Shown one piece after another: positions 23,611 to 35,371 of a stretch of DNA of 52,471 bases. The DNA lies in the NCBI GenBank assembly GCA_017460665.1, contig JAFUAO010000003.1:1-52471 (forward strand). The letters run 5' to 3'. The notes under the pieces are model-generated. The model was not told the origin of the DNA. It saw nothing but the letters and a program-made list of their open reading frames with translations, and did not search any database. Source of the DNA: Ruminococcus sp. Lineage in GTDB: Bacteria; Bacillota; Clostridia; Oscillospirales; Ruminococcaceae. The stretch's first letter is position 1, and every line of letters starts with the position of its first letter. A program made the translations under genes and the position numbers.

Positions 23611-23665
23611 CCTGTGCTGTGCAGTATCAAAATAACGCCGAAAGGCAGAAAAAAGGAGAATGAGA

Positions 23666-26600
23666 ATGAAGCTGAAACGTTTGATCTCAGCAGCGGCTGC
23701 AGCCGCTGTACTGGTGGGAGCAGTCCCCTGTCCGGCATATGCTGCCGAGGGCGACGAGGTGCTCCTCACCAACGACTTCGAGGAGAGCTTCGGCACCTGG
23801 AAGGCAAGGACCTCCGGGAGCACCGAGATAAGCCTCTCCGACACAACTGCAAATTCCGGCAGCAAGTCCCTCTATGTTACCGGAAGGACTACTAACTGGA
23901 ACGGCGCAGGCGCCTCCATGATCAAGGTCATGTACGCCGGCAGCCAGTACCAGCTCAGCGTGGCGGTCTACTACGACGACGAGACCGTGGGCGGTCAGCA
24001 GCAGCAGTTCAGCCTGCAATGCCTGTACACCGACAGTGAGGGCAAGGAGCGCTACGGCTACATCAGCGGCACTCAGGTGAAGTGCGGCGAATGGGCCACG
24101 ATCAGCGGCACCTACAATGTCCCGGAGGACGCAAGGGACCTTGTAGTTTATGTGGAGGCCGCTACTCTATCCGACTTCTACATCGACGATTTTTCAGTGA
24201 CCGGACCTCCGGCAGAGAGCGGATCGGCCGAGGACGGCTTCAGCGACGACTTCGAGGACGGTACTAAGATGAACTGGCAGGGAAGGGGCTCAAATACTAC
24301 CGTCGAGGTCACTGACAAGGCCGCCCACAGCGGCACCTACTCCCTTTACACTGACGGGCGAGAGCAGCTCTGGAACGGCGTCACCTGCAACAAGGCGCTG
24401 AATTTGGAGAACGGCGGCTACTACAGCTTCGGCTGCTGGGTGATGTACGACGGCGAGGAGTGGACCGACACCCAGAAGTTCTCAATAAACCTCCAGTACG
24501 ATATGGACGGCAAGGAGAACTACTACACACTCTACACCGACACCGCCGCAAAGGGCCAGTGGACCTACATCGGCACCGAGTACACGATCCCTCAGGACGC
24601 AACTAACATCTACGTTTACGTCCAGACCGCCTACAAGCCCGACGCATCAGTCACACCTCAGGACCTGATGGGCTTTTATCTGGACGACGTTTCCGCAGAG
24701 AGGCTCCCGGATCCTAAGATCCAGACCGACATACCCTCGCTGTGTGAGACCTACAAGGACTATTTCAAGATCGGCTGTGCGGCAACTGCCAGCGAGCTGG
24801 TCCAGTCTGCTGCAAAGGACCTGATCCTCAAGCACTACAACAGCCTGACTATCGGCAACGAGCTCAAGCCTGAGTCTCTCCTTGACCAGCAGGCCTCTAT
24901 CGCATATATGAACGCAAACGACGGCGACCAGGTCCACCCCCAGATCACTCTGAAAAACGCTAAGTCCCTCCTTGACTTCGCCAGCGAGAACAGTATCGAG
25001 CTGAGAGGCCACGTCCTCGTTTGGCACTCACAGACCCCCGACTGGTTCTTCAAGGAGAACTACAGCGACAGCGGCGCATTCGTTTCTCCCGAGGTCATGG
25101 ACCAGCGTATGGAGAACTACATAAAGACCGTTTTCGAGACCCTTGCCAAGGAGTACCCGGACGTGAAGTTCTACGCATGGGACGTGGTCAACGAGGCCGC
25201 CTCTGACGCAGGAACTATCCGAAAGGCCGGTGCCTACTCCCAGAACGATGGATCCTCCGGCTGGGTCAGCGTCTACGGCGACCAGAGCTACATCAAGAAG
25301 GCCTTCCAGTACGCAAGGCAGTACGCTCCCAAGGGCTGCAAGCTGTTCTACAACGACTATAACGAGTACAGCGACGCTAAGCTGAAATATATCCAGCAGG
25401 AGATCCTGGCTCCCCTGGTGGAGGAGGGCCTCATCGACGGCATGGGTATGCAGTCCCACATCGGCATGAGCAGTCCCACGATCGCCCAGTACGAGAACGC
25501 CCTGCGCTCCTATGCGGCTATGGGCCTTGAGGTCCAGGTCACTGAGCTGGACGTTTCCCTCAAGTCCAACAGCGAGGAGGACCTCCTTACGCTGGCGGAG
25601 CGCTACCGTGAGTGCTTCGAGATGTACAAGCGTGTGAAGGACGACGGCGTGGACCTTTCAGCAGTCGTGATCTGGGGAATAACAGACTCTACCAGCTGGA
25701 TCGGCGGCTATCCCCTGCTCTTCGACAAGGACTATCAGGCTAAGGCCGCATTTGACGCCGTTATCGACACCGATGCGGAGATCCAGACCATAAAGTCTAT
25801 CCCGGCCTATATGCTCAGCAGCGCCAGCTCCACCAACACCTCTATCTTTGACGGTGCAGTTGTCAACGATGTGGGCGACAAGGGCTCCTTCCGGGCGGCC
25901 TACGACACCAACGGCGGCAGGCTCAGCTTCCTGCTGGAGACTGCTCCGGGTGCAGAGGCAACTGTTATGGGCGACTGCTTCAAGACCTCCTCTGTGACTG
26001 TGACCAACGGACGCATGGAGCTGTCAGTTTCTCCCACAAAGGACCTGAGCACCGGCGACGAGGTAAGGTTCGACGTGGTGATCGACGGCGTGGCTTGGAA
26101 CGCTCAGACCGTCGATACTGCCGCTCCGGATCCCTCGGCCTACGGAAAGCTGACCCTGAAAAAGCGCCCCTCTATCGCTCAGGCGGCATACGGGACCCCC
26201 ACTATCGACGGCAAGATCGACGATGTGTGGGCTGACGCTCCTCAGATCGCTATCGACAAGCTCTCCTCTGAAAGCGGCGCAACGGGAACGGCTAAGATCC
26301 TCTGGGACAAGAAGAACATCTACGTTTTGGCTCAGGTGAAGGACCCCGTGCTCAGCGTGGCCAGCCCCAACACCTACGAGCAGGACTCTGTGGAGATCTT
26401 CATCGACGAGAACGGCCACAAGACCTCCTCCTATGAGGCAGACGACATACAGTGCAGAGTGAGCTGCGAGGGCGATAAGTCCGTTACCGACGGCCTCAGC
26501 ACTGACCGCTTCACCTCCTCCGCAGTCAAGACCGACGAGGGCTATCTGGTGGAGATCGCGATCCCGTCCACCCTTGGCGGCTATACCGCCGGCCAGTACA

Positions 26601-26977
26601 TCGGCTTCGATGCTCAGATCAACGACGACGGCGACGGCCAGGGCAAGCGCACGGCTATCGCAAACTGGTACGACCTGAGCGGCATGGGCTATACCGACGT
26701 TTCCGGACTGGGACTGCTGAAGCTGACCGGCGAGGCTCCTGACAGCGAGCTCCTCTACGGCGACGCAAACGTTGACGGAAAGGTGGACCTCCAGGACGCT
26801 GTAGCTATCCTGCAATTCTCTGCGCTCCCCAAGAAGTACCCCCTCACCGAGCTGGGCGAGGCTCAGGCCGACGTTGACGGTGTAGAGGGTATCTCCGGAA
26901 AGGACGCCCTCGTTATCCAGCAGGTAGACGCTAAGATCTACAGCCAGTCAGAGCTCCCTCTGACTGCCGGGAAGTAA
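23666..26977 (+). CDS. Cellulosomal xylanase: CBM22-CBM22-GH10-CBM9-dockerin
   Basis: A secreted 1103-residue endo-beta-1,4-xylanase. It has a signal peptide to about residue 27 (VPCPAYAA), two CBM22 modules (about 33-180 and 190-345, each with a NxxLYxxGR-type pattern), then GH10 (about 350-690) with acid/base Glu510 in WDVVNEA and nucleophile Glu627 in QVTELDV. A linker/beta domain is followed by a CBM9 (about 830-1020, starting TPTIDGKIDDVWADAP) and a type I dockerin at the C-terminus (GDANVDGKVDLQDAV and a second Ca-binding repeat). The dockerin docks it to scaffoldin cohesins. The start at 23666 has the best ribosome spacing (AAAAGGAG, 8 bases); an ATG at 23660 is too close. Confidence 0.95.
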   Translation: MKLKRLISAAAAAAVLVGAVPCPAYAAEGDEVLLTNDFEESFGTWKARTSGSTEISLSDTTANSGSKSLYVTGRTTNWNGAGASMIKVMYAGSQYQLSVAVYYDDETVGGQQQQFSLQCLYTDSEGKERYGYISGTQVKCGEWATISGTYNVPEDARDLVVYVEAATLSDFYIDDFSVTGPPAESGSAEDGFSDDFEDGTKMNWQGRGSNTTVEVTDKAAHSGTYSLYTDGREQLWNGVTCNKALNLENGGYYSFGCWVMYDGEEWTDTQKFSINLQYDMDGKENYYTLYTDTAAKGQWTYIGTEYTIPQDATNIYVYVQTAYKPDASVTPQDLMGFYLDDVSAERLPDPKIQTDIPSLCETYKDYFKIGCAATASELVQSAAKDLILKHYNSLTIGNELKPESLLDQQASIAYMNANDGDQVHPQITLKNAKSLLDFASENSIELRGHVLVWHSQTPDWFFKENYSDSGAFVSPEVMDQRMENYIKTVFETLAKEYPDVKFYAWDVVNEAASDAGTIRKAGAYSQNDGSSGWVSVYGDQSYIKKAFQYARQYAPKGCKLFYNDYNEYSDAKLKYIQQEILAPLVEEGLIDGMGMQSHIGMSSPTIAQYENALRSYAAMGLEVQVTELDVSLKSNSEEDLLTLAERYRECFEMYKRVKDDGVDLSAVVIWGITDSTSWIGGYPLLFDKDYQAKAAFDAVIDTDAEIQTIKSIPAYMLSSASSTNTSIFDGAVVNDVGDKGSFRAAYDTNGGRLSFLLETAPGAEATVMGDCFKTSSVTVTNGRMELSVSPTKDLSTGDEVRFDVVIDGVAWNAQTVDTAAPDPSAYGKLTLKKRPSIAQAAYGTPTIDGKIDDVWADAPQIAIDKLSSESGATGTAKILWDKKNIYVLAQVKDPVLSVASPNTYEQDSVEIFIDENGHKTSSYEADDIQCRVSCEGDKSVTDGLSTDRFTSSAVKTDEGYLVEIAIPSTLGGYTAGQYIGFDAQINDDGDGQGKRTAIANWYDLSGMGYTDVSGLGLLKLTGEAPDSELLYGDANVDGKVDLQDAVAILQFSALPKKYPLTELGEAQADVDGVEGISGKDALVIQQVDAKIYSQSELPLTAGK
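26755..26960 (+). repeat. Dockerin module, direct-orientation arm of an inverted repeat
   Basis: The dockerin coding segment of the xylanase matches, on the opposite strand, the dockerin segment at 28952-29160. By eye about 85% of bases agree, and the protein segments differ at only a few positions. The two arms enclose the SRPBCC gene and the retron. Confidence 0.8.
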
Positions 26978-27718: not shown

Positions 27719-27747
27719 TTGACTTTTTCTCTTCGCTGTGATATAAT
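27719..27747 (+). promoter_or_regulatory. Retron promoter
   Basis: TTGACT (27719-27724), 17-bp spacer, TATAAT (27742-27747), placing transcription start at about 27754, just before the a1 arm. Confidence 0.88.
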
Positions 27748-27753
27748 GCTCTT

Positions 27754-27932
27754 GACCGAACAGACGCCGGCAGCGTTTTGCACTTGCATACTGCGGCGAG
27801 TCGCCGCAGGGCTTTCAGGAATATCCACATGAGCAAATGTCAGCTCCACTGAATAAATAAGTCAACTTCGTTGACTTCAATTCAGCTCCGCCGCATTTGA
27901 ATGTTTTGTGCCGGCAGTCTGTTCTTTTTTTT
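27754..27932 (+). ncRNA. Retron msr-msd non-coding RNA
   Basis: The order matches a retron template RNA. The a1 arm GAACAGACGCCGGCA (27758-27772) pairs with the a2 arm TGCCGGCAGTCTGTTC (27909-27924) with one bulged A. Directly after a1 is AGC (27772-27774), where the branching G (27773) is expected. An msr hairpin of 8 bp, CTGCGGCG/CGCCGCAG, spans 27791-27809. The msd is a long hairpin from ACAT (27827) to ATGT (27904), with inner stems CAAATG/CATTTG, CTGAAT/ATTCAG and AAGTCAAC/GTTGACTT around a TTC loop. The reverse-transcribed DNA would be at most about 78 nt. Eight T residues follow a2, so the fold may also partly terminate transcription before the RT gene. Confidence 0.9.
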
Positions 27933-27945
27933 GGGAGGTGCAGCT

Positions 27946-28905
27946 ATGACAGACAGAGATGTTACGGAGCTCTCAAGAGCTCTCGGTGTGCCTGTGGGGA
28001 AGCTGTATATGCTCAGCAATGAGCGTATCCCCAGAAAGCCTAAGCGTGGCTCCTCCAAATACAAAAACTACCATACTGTCGTCATAAAAAAGGGGCTTTT
28101 CCGCAAGAGCCGAAAGCTGTCAGTGCCCAACGGCCTGCTGAAAATGACCCAGCGCAGGATCCTTCACCAGTACCTTTACAGGCTGGAGGCGTCACGATAC
28201 TCTACTGCCTATCAGCCCGGCCGCTCCCTCAGGGACAACGCCTCGCCTCACCTGGGGCAGGAGTACCTGATCAAGCTGGACATATCCAAATTCTTCGACA
28301 ATATCGACGCCGACATGGTCTACAACGTCATGAGACAGCTGGGGCTCTCACGGGCTGCAGCTGTCCTGCTCATGAGGCTTTGCGTACACAACAGCGTGCT
28401 CCCTCAGGGAGCTCCTACATCGCCGTATATCGCCAATCTGGTCATGAAGCCCTTCGACGAACACCTTGGAGACTGGTGCAGGGCCCGTGGGATAAACTAC
28501 ACTCGCTACTGCGATGATATGACCTTTTCCGGGAGAAAGGCCGACCTGCTCACCTGTCACCTTGTGGGGAAGGTCAGGAAGATGCTCCGGAGAATGGGAT
28601 TTGAGCTCAACGATAAGAAGACCCTCTTCCTGAGCCGTGGGTCCCAGCAGAAGGTCACGGGGATCGTAGTCAACCAGAAGCTGAAGGTCCCAAGGGAGCT
28701 CCGGCGGACGCTGCGGCAGGAGGTCTACTACTGCACCAAATTCGGGGCGGAGGAGAGCCTAAAGCGGCGCAGGCTGGATATGGCGCCGGAGGAGTATCTG
28801 CGCTCGCTGCTGGGACGGATCGCCTTTGCGCTCCAGATAGATCCGGAGGACAGTGAGATGCAGGGATACCACTCCCAGATCAAGGCCCTAGCTGCTCAGA
28901 AATAA
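27946..28905 (+). CDS. Retron reverse transcriptase
   Basis: A 319-residue RT that would make the msDNA from the RNA just upstream. It carries both retron hallmarks: the NAxxH motif (NASPH, residues 98-102) and the VTG triplet (237-239) in RT7. Catalytic motif A is LDISKFFDNI (111-120), motif B is LPQGAPTSP (152-160), and the active site is YCDD (188-191). The N-terminus (LYMLSNERIPRKPKR) and basic C-terminal thumb region are normal for the group. The ATG at 27946 follows GGGAGGTGCAGCT; a longer frame from 27901 would overlap the a2 arm. GC content resembles the host genome. No toxin, nuclease or other typical effector adjoins it: a terminator and a convergent gene follow. Confidence 0.93.
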   Translation: MTDRDVTELSRALGVPVGKLYMLSNERIPRKPKRGSSKYKNYHTVVIKKGLFRKSRKLSVPNGLLKMTQRRILHQYLYRLEASRYSTAYQPGRSLRDNASPHLGQEYLIKLDISKFFDNIDADMVYNVMRQLGLSRAAAVLLMRLCVHNSVLPQGAPTSPYIANLVMKPFDEHLGDWCRARGINYTRYCDDMTFSGRKADLLTCHLVGKVRKMLRRMGFELNDKKTLFLSRGSQQKVTGIVVNQKLKVPRELRRTLRQEVYYCTKFGAEESLKRRRLDMAPEEYLRSLLGRIAFALQIDPEDSEMQGYHSQIKALAAQK

Positions 28906-28907
28906 AC

Positions 28908-28936
28908 AAAAAAACTGCCCCGAGAGGCAGTTTTTT
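28908..28936. terminator. Bidirectional terminator after the retron RT
   Basis: AAAACTGCC and GGCAGTTTT arms with flanking A- and T-runs between the convergent RT and dockerin genes. Confidence 0.9.
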
Positions 28937-28945
28937 CTTTTGCTG

Positions 28946-31405
28946 TCATTTCAAGGGGAGCTGTCCCTGCCCGATCAGCTTTGCGTCCACCTGCTGGATC
29001 ACAAGTGCGTCCTTGCCGGAGATCCCCTCGACGCCGTCAACGTCAGCCTGCCGCTCGCCCTTCTCGGTAAGAGGATACTTCTTCGGCAGCGCAGAGTATT
29101 GCAGGATAGCGACTGCGTCCTGGAGGTCCACCTTTCCGTCAACATTTGCGTCGCCGTACAGCAGATCCGAGATCCTGACCTCAGTTACCCGGACCGTATC
29201 CACTGTCCGCTCGGCGCCGTCAGGAGCAGTGATCTTCACCGAGTAGGTGCCTTCCTTCCCGTTGATGACATAGGTCTCGCCGGTGGCTCCTTCGATAGCC
29301 TCGCCGTCCAAATACCACTGATACTGAGCGTCCTTCACAAGAGTCACCGGCGCTGCGGTGTAGCTCTCGCCCTCGGTCAGCTTCACGTCAGTGCGGCCGG
29401 AGTATACTCTAAAGCCTGCCGGGACGGTACAGGCCTCGGAATTTACCTCCCCCAGCAGGGCCCAATCGTTGGCGCTGTCCTGTAGGAAGAGCCGCACCTG
29501 CTGGATCTCGGTGCCGGCAGAGAGCCCCATCATCTCAAGAGGGATCGTGAACTCCACCGTATTCCCGACGTGCTTGCAGGAGTCTCCGCTTCGGCCGTCG
29601 TGGTTGAAATAAACATAGCCGTTAGAGGCGTAATAGATCCAGTAGCTCTCGCCGTCGGCTCTGGTCAGCCGGAGATTGTACACCGGAGCCTCCGCTGTGT
29701 CCGGGAGCTGTCCCATGATGTAAAGGTCATTCTCGTCGGCGGTCATGTAGACCTTGTTGTCGCCGTTCTCGCCGATCAGCATATCCTCGGTCCACTCGGT
29801 CTCAGAGGAGATCATGCCGTCCGCCACGATCTGGCCACGGACCGACATCACTCGCCCGTTATCGCCGCCGGAGCCGCCCTTCACACCGAAATACTTCGAC
29901 GTGCTGTCCGAGGGCGTGACGGTGACGCTGCCCACCAGATCTGCTCCCAGCGAGGCGTTCCACACGCCCTCATTTGCGAAGCGGATCGAACGCAGATCAT
30001 GCTGATCCACGGTATTTTCGCCCATTTGCAGCTTCAGATAAACGTTCCACTGGCCGGGCTCCAGACCGCCGGGGATAGTGACTGTCTGGCTCAGATCATT
30101 AGTGGTGCAGGAGAGCCACTTGTTTGCGTCCACCTCCGGCAGCGGACAGGAGATATAGCTGCCCTCGCGCTCAAGGATAAGGCTGGCGCTGACCTTGGGG
30201 ATCGGGCTGGCAAAGCCCGTGTTCTCCACGCTGAGCTCCACCGTAAGATCTCCGCCCTGAGGCACGCTCCCTGATGTTTTTGCGTCACGGAGGACGAAGC
30301 GGTAGCCCAGGTGGTCCCTGATGAACTGGAACACGGTCTGGCCATAATATGCGAAGTTATCCACTCCCGGAACGGAGTACTCCTCCCCGAAGGTATAGTC
30401 CTTGTAGAGGCTGAAAATGTTGCAGTTGATATAGCTCAGGTGAGTGCGGTACATCTCCGGGACCGCATTCTCCGGAAGGTAGGTGTCGTACTGCTGAGCG
30501 AAGGAGAGGTTCCCTGAGAACTCCCCTCCGTAATAGGAGGTCAGGCACTGTCTGCTGAGCCATGCGGTCTCGGTCTCACGGTCGGCGAAGGTGCCAAGGT
30601 CGGAGTTGCTCCCCATATAGCCGTCGTTGTACAGTCCCACACGGTAGGCCTGTGAGAGCCGGTAGCTCTGCTCCTCGGTAAGCTCCTGACCGGAGAGCCA
30701 TTCCTCGTCAGCAAGCTGGGAGCGCTCTATCCCCAGCCATTTTGCGAAGGTATCGGGGGTCCTGACAGTGACCGGTATCGGCTCCGGCACAGCCTTCACG
30801 AAGGCGTCAAGGACCTGAGCCTTGTAGTCAAGGGAGGTGTATTTTCCGCCGTGCTGCTCGCCCCACTTGCCCACCATACCGGTCTCGACGTAGGCGATGA
30901 TGTCGGAGTACTCCTCCAGCAGGCCGCTCTCCTTGATCTGCTCGATGTGGCGCAGCACCATGTCGAAGCTGGAGGGCTCCGGGTCGTCGTAGCCGTTCTC
31001 ATCGTAGCGGAAGCGCATGGCTATCATGCTGCCGTTTTTCCGGCAGTTCTCGAAGCTCTCCCTCAGCGAGCGGAAGAAGCTCTCGTCCAGCTCATAGTCC
31101 TGGCCCGGGACGTAGTCGGCGCCCTCGGTCCGGGTGCCGTTGGCGCCGGAGGAGTAGGCTCCGATGTAGATGAAGAACAGGACGATGCTGCCCTGGGGGT
31201 CGATCGGCTTGTATTCGCCGGGAGCGAGCCTGTACCACGGGGTATTCGTGTAGCCTGCGCCGGGGTTTGCGATAGTCTCCACCGATTCGGTGAAGCTGAT
31301 GTCAGATGTGACCAGCTCCTCCTCCGCCGAGGCCGACGGAAGGCCGCAGCAGGATAGCACGGCGGCGCCGGTGATCACTGAGAGGACTCGTTGAAATTTC
31401 GTCAT
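28946..31405 (-). CDS. Secreted DUF4874/DUF4832 protein with dockerin
   Basis: 819 residues with a signal peptide (to about residue 27, SASA). Residues about 35-420 correspond to DUF4874 followed by DUF4832, a barrel-like pair found in secreted glycan-active proteins (NPGAGYTNTPWYRL, IAMRFRYDENGYDDPEPSSFD, AYVETGMVGKWGEQHGG, YNDGYMGSNSDLGTF). Beta-sandwich segments follow (CARDB-like, then a carbohydrate-binding-like region), then an Ig-like domain (APVTLVKDAQYQWYLDGEAI) and a C-terminal type I dockerin (GDANVDGKVDLQDAV). The catalytic activity is not established. The dockerin makes it a cellulosome subunit. It is divergent from the sensor-AraC gene, which may control it. Confidence 0.85.
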   Translation of the reverse strand: MTKFQRVLSVITGAAVLSCCGLPSASAEEELVTSDISFTESVETIANPGAGYTNTPWYRLAPGEYKPIDPQGSIVLFFIYIGAYSSGANGTRTEGADYVPGQDYELDESFFRSLRESFENCRKNGSMIAMRFRYDENGYDDPEPSSFDMVLRHIEQIKESGLLEEYSDIIAYVETGMVGKWGEQHGGKYTSLDYKAQVLDAFVKAVPEPIPVTVRTPDTFAKWLGIERSQLADEEWLSGQELTEEQSYRLSQAYRVGLYNDGYMGSNSDLGTFADRETETAWLSRQCLTSYYGGEFSGNLSFAQQYDTYLPENAVPEMYRTHLSYINCNIFSLYKDYTFGEEYSVPGVDNFAYYGQTVFQFIRDHLGYRFVLRDAKTSGSVPQGGDLTVELSVENTGFASPIPKVSASLILEREGSYISCPLPEVDANKWLSCTTNDLSQTVTIPGGLEPGQWNVYLKLQMGENTVDQHDLRSIRFANEGVWNASLGADLVGSVTVTPSDSTSKYFGVKGGSGGDNGRVMSVRGQIVADGMISSETEWTEDMLIGENGDNKVYMTADENDLYIMGQLPDTAEAPVYNLRLTRADGESYWIYYASNGYVYFNHDGRSGDSCKHVGNTVEFTIPLEMMGLSAGTEIQQVRLFLQDSANDWALLGEVNSEACTVPAGFRVYSGRTDVKLTEGESYTAAPVTLVKDAQYQWYLDGEAIEGATGETYVINGKEGTYSVKITAPDGAERTVDTVRVTEVRISDLLYGDANVDGKVDLQDAVAILQYSALPKKYPLTEKGERQADVDGVEGISGKDALVIQQVDAKLIGQGQLPLK
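28952..29160 (-). repeat. Dockerin module, inverted arm
   Basis: Reverse-complement partner of 26755-26960. It encodes the dockerin of the DUF4832 protein, with nearly the same residues as the xylanase dockerin (differences such as LQYSALPKKYPLTEKGERQ). Confidence 0.8.
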
Positions 31406-33919: not shown

Positions 33920-35371
33920 TTGAAGCTATACAGACGACTTCCCGCTGCTCTGACCGCCGCTGTCAGCGCAGTTTCAGTGCTGACCATGATCCCCGGCGAG
34001 GCGGAGGCAGTCTCCGGCCAGATGAGAGAGATCTCCACCATGGAGCTGGTAAGGGACATGGGCATCGGCATAAACCTCGGAAATACGATGGAGGCCTGCG
34101 GCGACTGGATCGCTCAGTGGGGGGACGGCACCGTTTCCTCCTATGAGACCGCCTGGGGCAGCCCTGTGATCACCGAGGATATGATCAGCGGCTACGCTGA
34201 GGCAGGCTTCGGCGTGCTGAGGATCCCTGTGGCCTGGTCCAACCTCATGGGGGACAACTACACCATTAGCCCTGACTATATGGCAAGGGTCCAGCAGATC
34301 GTAGACTGGACCTTGGACGCAAATATGTACGCTATCATCAATATCCATTACGACAACGGCTGGGTGAACAAATTCCCCGACAACAAGGACGAGTGCATGA
34401 AGCGCTACACCACAATGTGGGACCAGATCTGTGAGGGCTTCAAGGACTACGGCGACCACCTTATGTTCGAGTCCCAGAACGAGGAGCTGGGCTGGGATAC
34501 CCTTTGGAACAAATGGGGCGGCACCAATGGCAAGGACCAGTCCTACGCCCTTGTGAACGAGATCAACCAGAAGTTCGTGGACACTGTCAGAGCCTCCGGC
34601 GGCAACAACAGCCAGCGCCACCTGCTGATCTCCGGCTACAACACCGACCTCTCCTGCACCTGCGACTCTATGTTCAAGATGCCTGATGACCCTGCCGGAA
34701 GGATGGCAGTTTCGGTACACTACTACTCTCCTGTCGGCTTTGCGATCCTTGAAGAGGACGCAGACTGGGGCAAGGCTTCCTCGACCTGGGGAACGCAGGC
34801 AGAGGTGAAGACTCTCCAGAACGACATGGACCAGCTAAAGTACACCTTCATCGACAAGGGCGTGCCCGTCATCATCGGCGAGTACGGCTGCCCGATCAAG
34901 AACAAGGAGCTGGACTCTATCAGAAGGTTCCTCACGTCAGTTTGCAGCGAGGCCTACTCCCGTCAGCTCTGCCCCGTTATGTGGGACACTCCCGGCGGAC
35001 AGTACGACAGAAAGAGCTGCAAGATGAGCGACACCGTCCTCCAGCAGGCTCTGCTGGACATTGCAGGCGACAATATCCCGGCCAACAAGGTCCCTGAGAC
35101 TACCGAAGCCGCTGAGACAACTGTGACCACCGAAGAGGATCAGGTCCTCACCGGCGACGCCAACGCCGACGGAAAGCTGGACCTCAACGACGCTGTTGCG
35201 ATCCTGCAATATGTGTCCCTCCCGGCAAAGTACCCTCTCTCCGACGAGGGCATGGCTGCAGCGGACTGCTGCGACCCCGGTGACGGGATCACCGGAAAGG
35301 ACGCCTTGGCGATCCAGATGCTGGACTCCAAGCTGATCTCGTCCCTGCCTTACTGGTCAGAGCAAAAATGA
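33920..35371 (+). CDS. Cellulosomal GH5 endoglucanase with dockerin
   Basis: A secreted 483-residue endo-beta-1,4-glucanase. TTG start behind AGGAGCTGATCGTT; signal peptide to about residue 30. The GH5 domain (about 38-385) opens with the GIGINLGNTMEA motif typical of subfamily 4-like cellulases. Further motifs are LRIPVAWSNL, INIHYDNGW, acid/base Glu188 in FESQNEELGW, the SVHYYSP strand and nucleophile Glu321 in IIGEYG. A Thr/Glu-rich linker (TTEAAETTVTTEE) leads to a type I dockerin (GDANADGKLDLNDAV and DGITGKDALAIQ). It should cleave cellulose, mixed-linkage glucan or xyloglucan as part of the cellulosome. Confidence 0.95.
   Translation: MKLYRRLPAALTAAVSAVSVLTMIPGEAEAVSGQMREISTMELVRDMGIGINLGNTMEACGDWIAQWGDGTVSSYETAWGSPVITEDMISGYAEAGFGVLRIPVAWSNLMGDNYTISPDYMARVQQIVDWTLDANMYAIINIHYDNGWVNKFPDNKDECMKRYTTMWDQICEGFKDYGDHLMFESQNEELGWDTLWNKWGGTNGKDQSYALVNEINQKFVDTVRASGGNNSQRHLLISGYNTDLSCTCDSMFKMPDDPAGRMAVSVHYYSPVGFAILEEDADWGKASSTWGTQAEVKTLQNDMDQLKYTFIDKGVPVIIGEYGCPIKNKELDSIRRFLTSVCSEAYSRQLCPVMWDTPGGQYDRKSCKMSDTVLQQALLDIAGDNIPANKVPETTEAAETTVTTEEDQVLTGDANADGKLDLNDAVAILQYVSLPAKYPLSDEGMAAADCCDPGDGITGKDALAIQMLDSKLISSLPYWSEQK

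Follow-up and report, generated by a model that had tools for sequence, protein, structure and literature searches.

The 52,471-nt stretch of Ruminococcus sp. DNA analysed here (the window) very probably carries a self-contained Ec107-type (Retron-Eco5) retron, for which no linked effector was found and from which msDNA production is predicted. On sequence analysis, the complete cassette spans positions 27719-28936 and comprises an extended sigma-70 promoter, an msr-msd RNA, a 319-residue reverse transcriptase (RT), and a terminator (Table 1). These are the four parts of the complete retron put forward in the original prediction; all of them were located, and both the covariation of the RNA and the class of the RT agree with that reading. 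The element had also been termed apparently undescribed. Within the literature searched this holds for the individual element (a search for retron, Ruminococcus, and reverse transcriptase listed no title about a Ruminococcus retron), but its kind is known, being Ec107-like. The main interest lies in the broad branch to which it belongs, which has no recurrent linked effector and does have a recurrent DNA-type hairpin.

Table 1. Features of the retron cassette, in window coordinates.
Feature	Position	Strand	Basis or remark
Sigma-70 promoter TTGACT-17-TATAAT, TG-extended -10	27719..27747	+	11/12 consensus matches
a1 arm of the retron ncRNA, GAACAGACGCCGGCA	27758..27772	+	Pairs with a2, one bulge
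Predicted branching guanosine	27773..27773	+	AGC at a1 end; retron rule and genus alignment
msr hairpin CTGCGGCG-AGT-CGCCGCAG	27791..27809	+	100% of cells paired in 18 loci
msd, predicted RT-DNA template, 84 nt (ends approximate)	27825..27908	+	Comparison with the E. coli element; inference
msd outer stem	27834-27839/27894-27899	+	Fold and genus alignment
msd inner stem CTGAAT/ATTCAG, bearing the tip hairpin	27849..27885 (arms 27849-27854/27880-27885)	+	100% of cells paired; two pairs with double-sided change
msd tip: 8-bp stem, TTC loop (GAA triloop on the DNA strand)	27859..27877	+	Hairpin read and loop counts
a2 arm	27909..27924	+	Covariation with a1
Ribosome-binding site GGGAGG	27933..27938	+	Read from sequence
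Retron RT, 319 aa, Ec107-like (NASPH, YCDD, VTG)	27946..28905	+	ORF, PADLOC, alignment, trees, predicted structure
Intrinsic terminator; also reads as terminator for the convergent dockerin gene	28909..28936	+	Sequence

Organization of the cassette

The RT bears the motifs that mark retron enzymes, all three of which had been predicted: NAxxH of region X (NASPH, residues 98-102), YxDD (YCDD, 188-191), and VTG (237-239). In an alignment of 50 rows, H102, Y188, D190, D191, T238, and G239 were invariant. Upstream of the RT lies an msr-msd RNA with paired a1 and a2 arms and AGC at the end of a1, as expected of a retron. The predicted a1/a2 pairing and the msr hairpin both stood up to comparison among relatives (see below). 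AGC starts with the final base of a1, which would make G27773 the branching guanosine. One detail required amendment. The nested msd hairpin with its 8-bp, TTC-capped stem was found as described, but its length had been put at no more than about 78 nt. The stretch apparently homologous to the msd of the E. coli slmA-pyrE element measures 84 nt as far as a2 (98 nt in the E. coli element), so an RT-DNA of about 80-95 nt seems more likely.

The RT and its RNA occur together in the genus

We searched 125 genomes of the genus, 35 of which had some RT match at E <= 0.001. Seventeen genomes contributed 18 loci that keep the RT start, with identities of 57-100% (the window included). Directly 5' of the RT, the ncRNA was present in all 18. 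The RT is uninterrupted in 17 of them; in the remaining locus (L064, G050:C28), it is split between two frames and the ncRNA is retained. The RNA counts omit G001:C2, the G003 fragment, and the contig-edge copy in G020, whose upstream region is missing. The G001:C2 copy (L072) is damaged, having an in-frame stop and no ncRNA or msr core that we could find, and that of G003:C13 (L073) is a 76-residue RT fragment in which no msr core was found.

A covariance model was built from the 18 genus ncRNAs and scanned over the 125 genomes with stricter filters. It returned 18 strong matches (E of 5e-29 or better), each at one of the 18 RT loci; the rest comprised 12 antisense hits that echo the palindromic msd and a single weak hit in G084 (E 0.005). 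The model had no match at E <= 0.01 in 22 retron-free loci. Because the strong matches fall exactly at the RT loci and none falls in the retron-free ones, the RNA and the RT evidently travel together. An Rfam search yielded no retron family match at either gathering or relaxed thresholds.

The dockerin gene downstream of the window retron has matches in 85 of the 125 genomes. Among 15 dockerin loci compared, the retron ncRNA was present only at the window and at its sister in G034; the sequence of one locus (L088) extends just 135 nt beyond the gene. None of these loci could be aligned as a clean empty site.

Covariation supports the RNA fold

The window RNA folds with a z-score of -4.15, and none of 200 shuffles folded as well. 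Covariation was examined in 18 distinct sequences over 40 pairs, with 500 shuffles and six slid versions as controls. Paired cells amounted to 94.6% as observed vs. 28-49% when the partner was slid by 1-3 columns, and 15 of the 40 pairs (53 cells) had changed on both sides; kinship of the loci inflates such counts, and the slid controls retain the same kinship. No shuffle of the 500 reached the observed value for four of five covariation measures, and 38 did so for the fifth, further pair types. Most of the covariation comes from the a1/a2 helix, in which 8 of 12 pairs are altered on both sides. The msd inner stem occurs in the genus as CTGAAT/ATTCAG, CCGAAT/ATTCGG, GCGAAT/ATTCGC, and ACGAAT/ATTCGT. 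Outer msd pairs are kept less well: 78.7% of cells are paired, and columns 104-161 are unpaired in 14 of the 18 loci. RNAalifold offered an alternative 3' hairpin (columns 157-177), which we set aside in favor of the outer msd stem; neither is strongly supported. Taken over the genus, a1/a2 and msd pairing was retained in 18 of 18 loci, as a check in relatives ought to find if the predicted pairing is correct.

Just before a1, a promoter with 9-12 of 12 consensus matches and a 17-bp spacer is found in 15 of the 18 loci, 14 of them with TG ahead of the -10 element. In the three others (L067, L068, and L071), a repeat of about 206 bp is inserted where the promoter would be. This repeat (e.g., L068:7571-7776) is dispersed: its matches in the three genomes searched numbered 11 each in G022 and G058 and 2 in G008, some of them short or mirror matches.

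The msd tip resembles a stable DNA hairpin

When the tip loop is read as the DNA strand, 16 of the 18 genus loci have a GNA triloop (GAA in 8, GCA in 3, and GGA in 5), and the other two have ACA (L061) and ACC (L062). Among more distant relatives that the RT tree puts on the Ec107 side (see below), 22 of 29 had a tip that could be assessed by script, the apical loop being chosen by hand where there were several; the remaining 7 had no msr core or no a2 motif that we could find. A GNA triloop occurs in 11 of the 22, a five-nucleotide T-GNA-G loop in 4 more, and neither in 7 (L009, L043, L045-L048, and L080). A blind count of upstream triloop hairpins with at least 5 pairs, the msr loop excluded, gave GNA in 16 of 23 in the genus, 15 of 52 in the distant loci, and 1 of 8 in the six control loci of other retron types. 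Shared ancestry inflates all of these GNA counts.

Two accounts (PMC4686876, PMC11101458) describe GNA loops as extraordinarily stable, nuclease-resistant DNA mini-hairpins. The DNA-side folding energies of the loops that we compared were alike, and the energy tables hold no special stability for DNA triloops. Since such tables are blind to this property, the claim for GNA rests on the sequence pattern together with what PMC4686876 and PMC11101458 report. By a hand reading of the 52-row RT tree, the middle base of the genus tip loop changed about four times and the outer two once or twice. This pattern is no more than suggestive. A DNA-type motif at the tip may mean that the reverse-transcribed product is under selection, which we advance as an argument and not as proof. 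A literature search for retron together with triloop found no paper. In two distant loci, the msd region contains two GNA-triloop hairpins each (GCA and GTA in L003; GCA and GAA in L004), so that the msd there looks branched or doubled.

No recurrent effector was found linked to the RT

Does the element have the linked effector that most studied retrons carry? We examined ORFs of at least 80 residues that do not overlap the RT and lie within about 700 bp of the element. The sample, drawn from 45 Ec107-side loci, comprised 102 proteins (L009 and three broken genus copies were omitted, and L045 gave none). None of the 102, the window's three included, matched a retron effector model in PADLOC; six unrelated models were matched, by one member each. 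Effectors were present in all six control retrons, which are of other types and came from the same searches: PRTase III-A in four, NDT II-A in one, and a fused RT-Toprim in one. Judged by the 25 of 75 Pfam families listed, the neighbors seem to be typical host genes. When 275 ORFs from 56 loci, RTs among them, were clustered, no family apart from the RT exceeded six loci. Within the ORFs tested, then, a linked or fused effector, the mark of a tripartite defence retron, appears to be lacking. Its absence is the most unusual feature of the lineage and went unmentioned in the original prediction.

One of the two six-locus families encodes an S33-type alpha/beta hydrolase directly after the RT (L066-L071, in G011, G054, G022, G008, G096, and G058), where its gene abuts or overlaps the RT stop, with an ATGA overlap in L068; the other lies upstream in the same six genomes. 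The hydrolase occurs in 21 of the 125 genomes, and in 15 of them it has no close RT beside it by position (9 of the 15 were read). In several retron-free loci, a promoter-like sequence was seen by eye just before the hydrolase gene. The adjacency of RT and hydrolase could be a nascent operon, the capture of an effector, or only an insertion site.

It is improbable, in our judgment, that the window retron is tripartite after all, with an effector that went unrecognized, such that a neighbor (the 144-residue protein encoded upstream or the alpha/beta hydrolase) is a toxin held in check by RT-msDNA. Such a constitution is that of most studied retrons, and the abutting hydrolase of the six loci would fit it. 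However, the hydrolase does without a close RT in 15 of its 21 genomes, the 144-residue protein matches nothing in PADLOC or Pfam and clusters with no neighbor of the other copies, and no neighbor family goes beyond six loci. The contrast of 0 of 102 neighbors with 6 of 6 controls points the same way for ORFs that have at least 80 residues, lie no more than about 700 bp away, and are clear of the RT.

We consider it very improbable that the element is a relic, i.e., a retron that, having lost its effector, is degrading or has persisted by chance. Loss is plausible inasmuch as the nearest outgroup has PRTase genes, and damaged copies do exist in the genus (G001:C2, G003, and G050). Nevertheless, the window RT and its nearest relative (G034, 83% identity) differ with a dN/dS of 0.12, albeit at a dS near 0.86; the motifs in the window are intact; the covarying RNA is kept in 18 of 18 loci; and the effector-free side of the tree, which includes E. 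coli and many Clostridia, looks old and maintained.

Placement of the RT

The best PADLOC model for the window RT was RT_Ec107-like (392.7 bits, E 3e-118), followed by RT_III-A (308.3 bits); Pfam recognized RVT_1. With the window RT as the query, 17 of 396 genomes of the family had matches at E <= 1e-30 and 12 of 391 of the class at E <= 1e-40, and genome contigs gave 9 loci. The resulting distant set consisted of 33 distinct loci and two lower-scoring genus matches (L028 and L029). As had been expected, the RT groups with retrons. The tree puts 29 of the distant loci on the Ec107 side; the remaining 6 fall on the opposite side. The branch that separates effector-free from effector-bearing RTs had support of 99/96 in the 52-row tree and 95/89 in a 46-row tree without the near-copies L009, L042, L044, L067, L070, and L084 and the long-branched L054, and with E. 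coli added; both trees are midpoint-rooted only, and L029 and L054 are long branches. PADLOC, run on 10 relatives, gave seven clear RT_Ec107-like assignments, a tie with RT_III-A for L083, and RT_III-A for L052 and L053. For the distant loci, the Ec107-like label rests on the tree, PADLOC having been run on 8 of that side's 46 relatives.

The ncRNA model matched 5' of the RT and on its strand (E <= 0.01) at 15 of the 29 distant Ec107-side loci, and gave no match at that threshold at the other 14. It also matched one of the six other-side loci, the type III-A control L051 (E 0.0055), so the model is not specific to the clade. The msr core CGA(G/T)(T/C)CG was found by script in 26 of the 29, being absent from L005, L010, and L082.

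Type III-A retrons resemble the window element in having a related RT and, in controls L051 and L052, an msr-like hairpin with a CGAGTCG core; they differ in having PRTase genes upstream (and, in L051, a winged-helix gene), none of which were found at the window. That the window retron is a III-A variant is most unlikely. RT_III-A is its second-best PADLOC family and III-A RTs form the nearest outgroup in both trees, yet the window RT lies across the 99/96 branch from them, and no match to PRTase or winged-helix proteins, the III-A mark, occurred among the 102 neighbors, the window's three included, whereas four of the six controls have PRTase_III-A.

An AlphaFold2 model of the RT (pLDDT 92.8) had retron entries as its best 18 PDB matches, with group II intron RTs next. 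Some other RNA-guided RT (a group II intron fragment, a DGR, or a DRT-type defence RT) shares the fold, but that one has been mistaken here for a retron is scarcely credible given NAxxH and VTG, the covarying msr-msd RNA, and the ranking of those 18 retron structures above the group II, DRT, and DGR entries. The model resembles Retron-Eco1 (Ec86) in RT fold and architecture (TM 0.75); in contrast, the two RTs are about 25% identical in the structural alignment, and Eco1 was solved in complex with an effector. The Eco1 RNA is unlike that of the window.

No relative was found when viral contigs were searched with the single RT protein. In phage and plasmid records, all RTs fell below 60% identity (39.7% and 36.7% for the best-ranked), giving no sign that recorded phages or plasmids carry the close family.

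Comparison with E. coli Ec107

The slmA(ttk)-pyrE intergenic site of E. coli is what we take to be the Ec107 (Retron-Eco5) site. Of 60 E. coli records drawn in even steps through 5374 listed, 5 carry a "reverse transcriptase family protein" between slmA and pyrE. The comparison that follows is with the element of one strain, MS20649, whose identity as Ec107 rests on its site and on PADLOC (RT_Ec107-like, 437 bits). Its RT has 319 residues and YCDD, is placed by the tree among the effector-free RTs, next to a group with Lachnospiraceae members (96/89), and is 45% identical to the window RT over 265 residues. The RT is the only annotated gene between slmA and pyrE, a genomic site different from that of the window.

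The two RNAs share an msr-msd upstream of the RT, an msr hairpin of the GGCGAGTCGC type, AGC where a1 ends, and a tip with a GNA loop (as DNA, GTACGC-GAA-GCGTAC in E. coli). The Ruminococcus covariance model matched upstream of the MS20649 RT on the same strand (E = 0.0014, 18.7 bits); with 5.3 kb searched and filters off, the score is modest and the E-value rough, and a III-A control scored as well. In the grouping of its RT, its apparently homologous if weakly matching ncRNA, and the lack of an accessory gene, the window element thus looks Ec107-like. PMC6868368 states that RT-Eco5 has YCDD and that the retron replaces 34 bp of intergenic DNA; there, Ec107 expression is also said to rise upon phosphate starvation and entry into stationary phase.

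Proposed mechanism and role

By homology to known retrons, we envisage that one promoter would give rise to a single RNA containing the msr, the msd, and the RT message. The RT would bind the msr, prime from the 2'-OH of G27773, and copy the msd into an RT-DNA of about 80-95 nt. After digestion of the template by host RNase H, the product would be a branched msDNA tipped with an ultra-stable GNA-loop hairpin. Priming from a 2'-OH, copying of the msd, and template removal by RNase H are features of retron biology (PMC6868368, PMC8989520).

What might such a product do? A 2019 review (PMC6868368) calls retron function poorly understood. The literature searched gave no answer as to the role of Ec107, a retron without a linked effector, and a search worded for effector-less retrons found no paper. 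In a Clostridia family, the RT, the RNA fold, and the DNA-type tip are kept while no linked effector recurs, which suggests that RT-msDNA is functional by itself or has a partner encoded elsewhere, and the missing effector hints faintly that the particle may act in one of these two ways. By analogy, phage sensing or defence, alone or with a partner in trans, would be the most likely role, a tentative assignment that falls short of being probable. The induction of Ec107 in starvation and stationary phase, as given in PMC6868368, does not point to phage defence.

A broader proposition strikes us as possible but rather unlikely: that Ec107-type retrons form an ancient, actively maintained, effector-free branch whose output is the RT-msDNA particle and whose hallmark tip is selected at the DNA level for GNA (GAA/GCA/GGA). 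If true, the tip would hold the msDNA in its folded state and make it resist nucleases and single-strand-binding proteins, and the folded msDNA would sense a phage or stress factor or titrate a host protein. The Clostridia family offers many natural variants for testing function, and retrons of the Ec107 kind, being compact (about 1.2 kb), are candidates for DNA production in Bacillota hosts.

Surroundings of the retron

The window retron lies among fibre-degradation genes (23660-26977, 28946-31405, and 33920-35371), whose products are a GH10 enzyme with CBM9 and CBM4_9, a DUF4832/DUF4874 protein, and a GH5 enzyme. Dockerin matches of the GH10 and DUF4832/DUF4874 proteins are below the Pfam cut-off, and the GH5 dockerin was recognized by eye. 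Elsewhere in the genus, genes of the serine recombinase family lie 3' of the RT or its remnant in L060, L062, L072, L073, and L074 (Resolvase by Pfam in the two that were scanned), and L057, L060, and L062 have upstream genes in common, including one that is glutamine amidotransferase-like. The recombinases and these common upstream genes suggest carriage on integrative elements.
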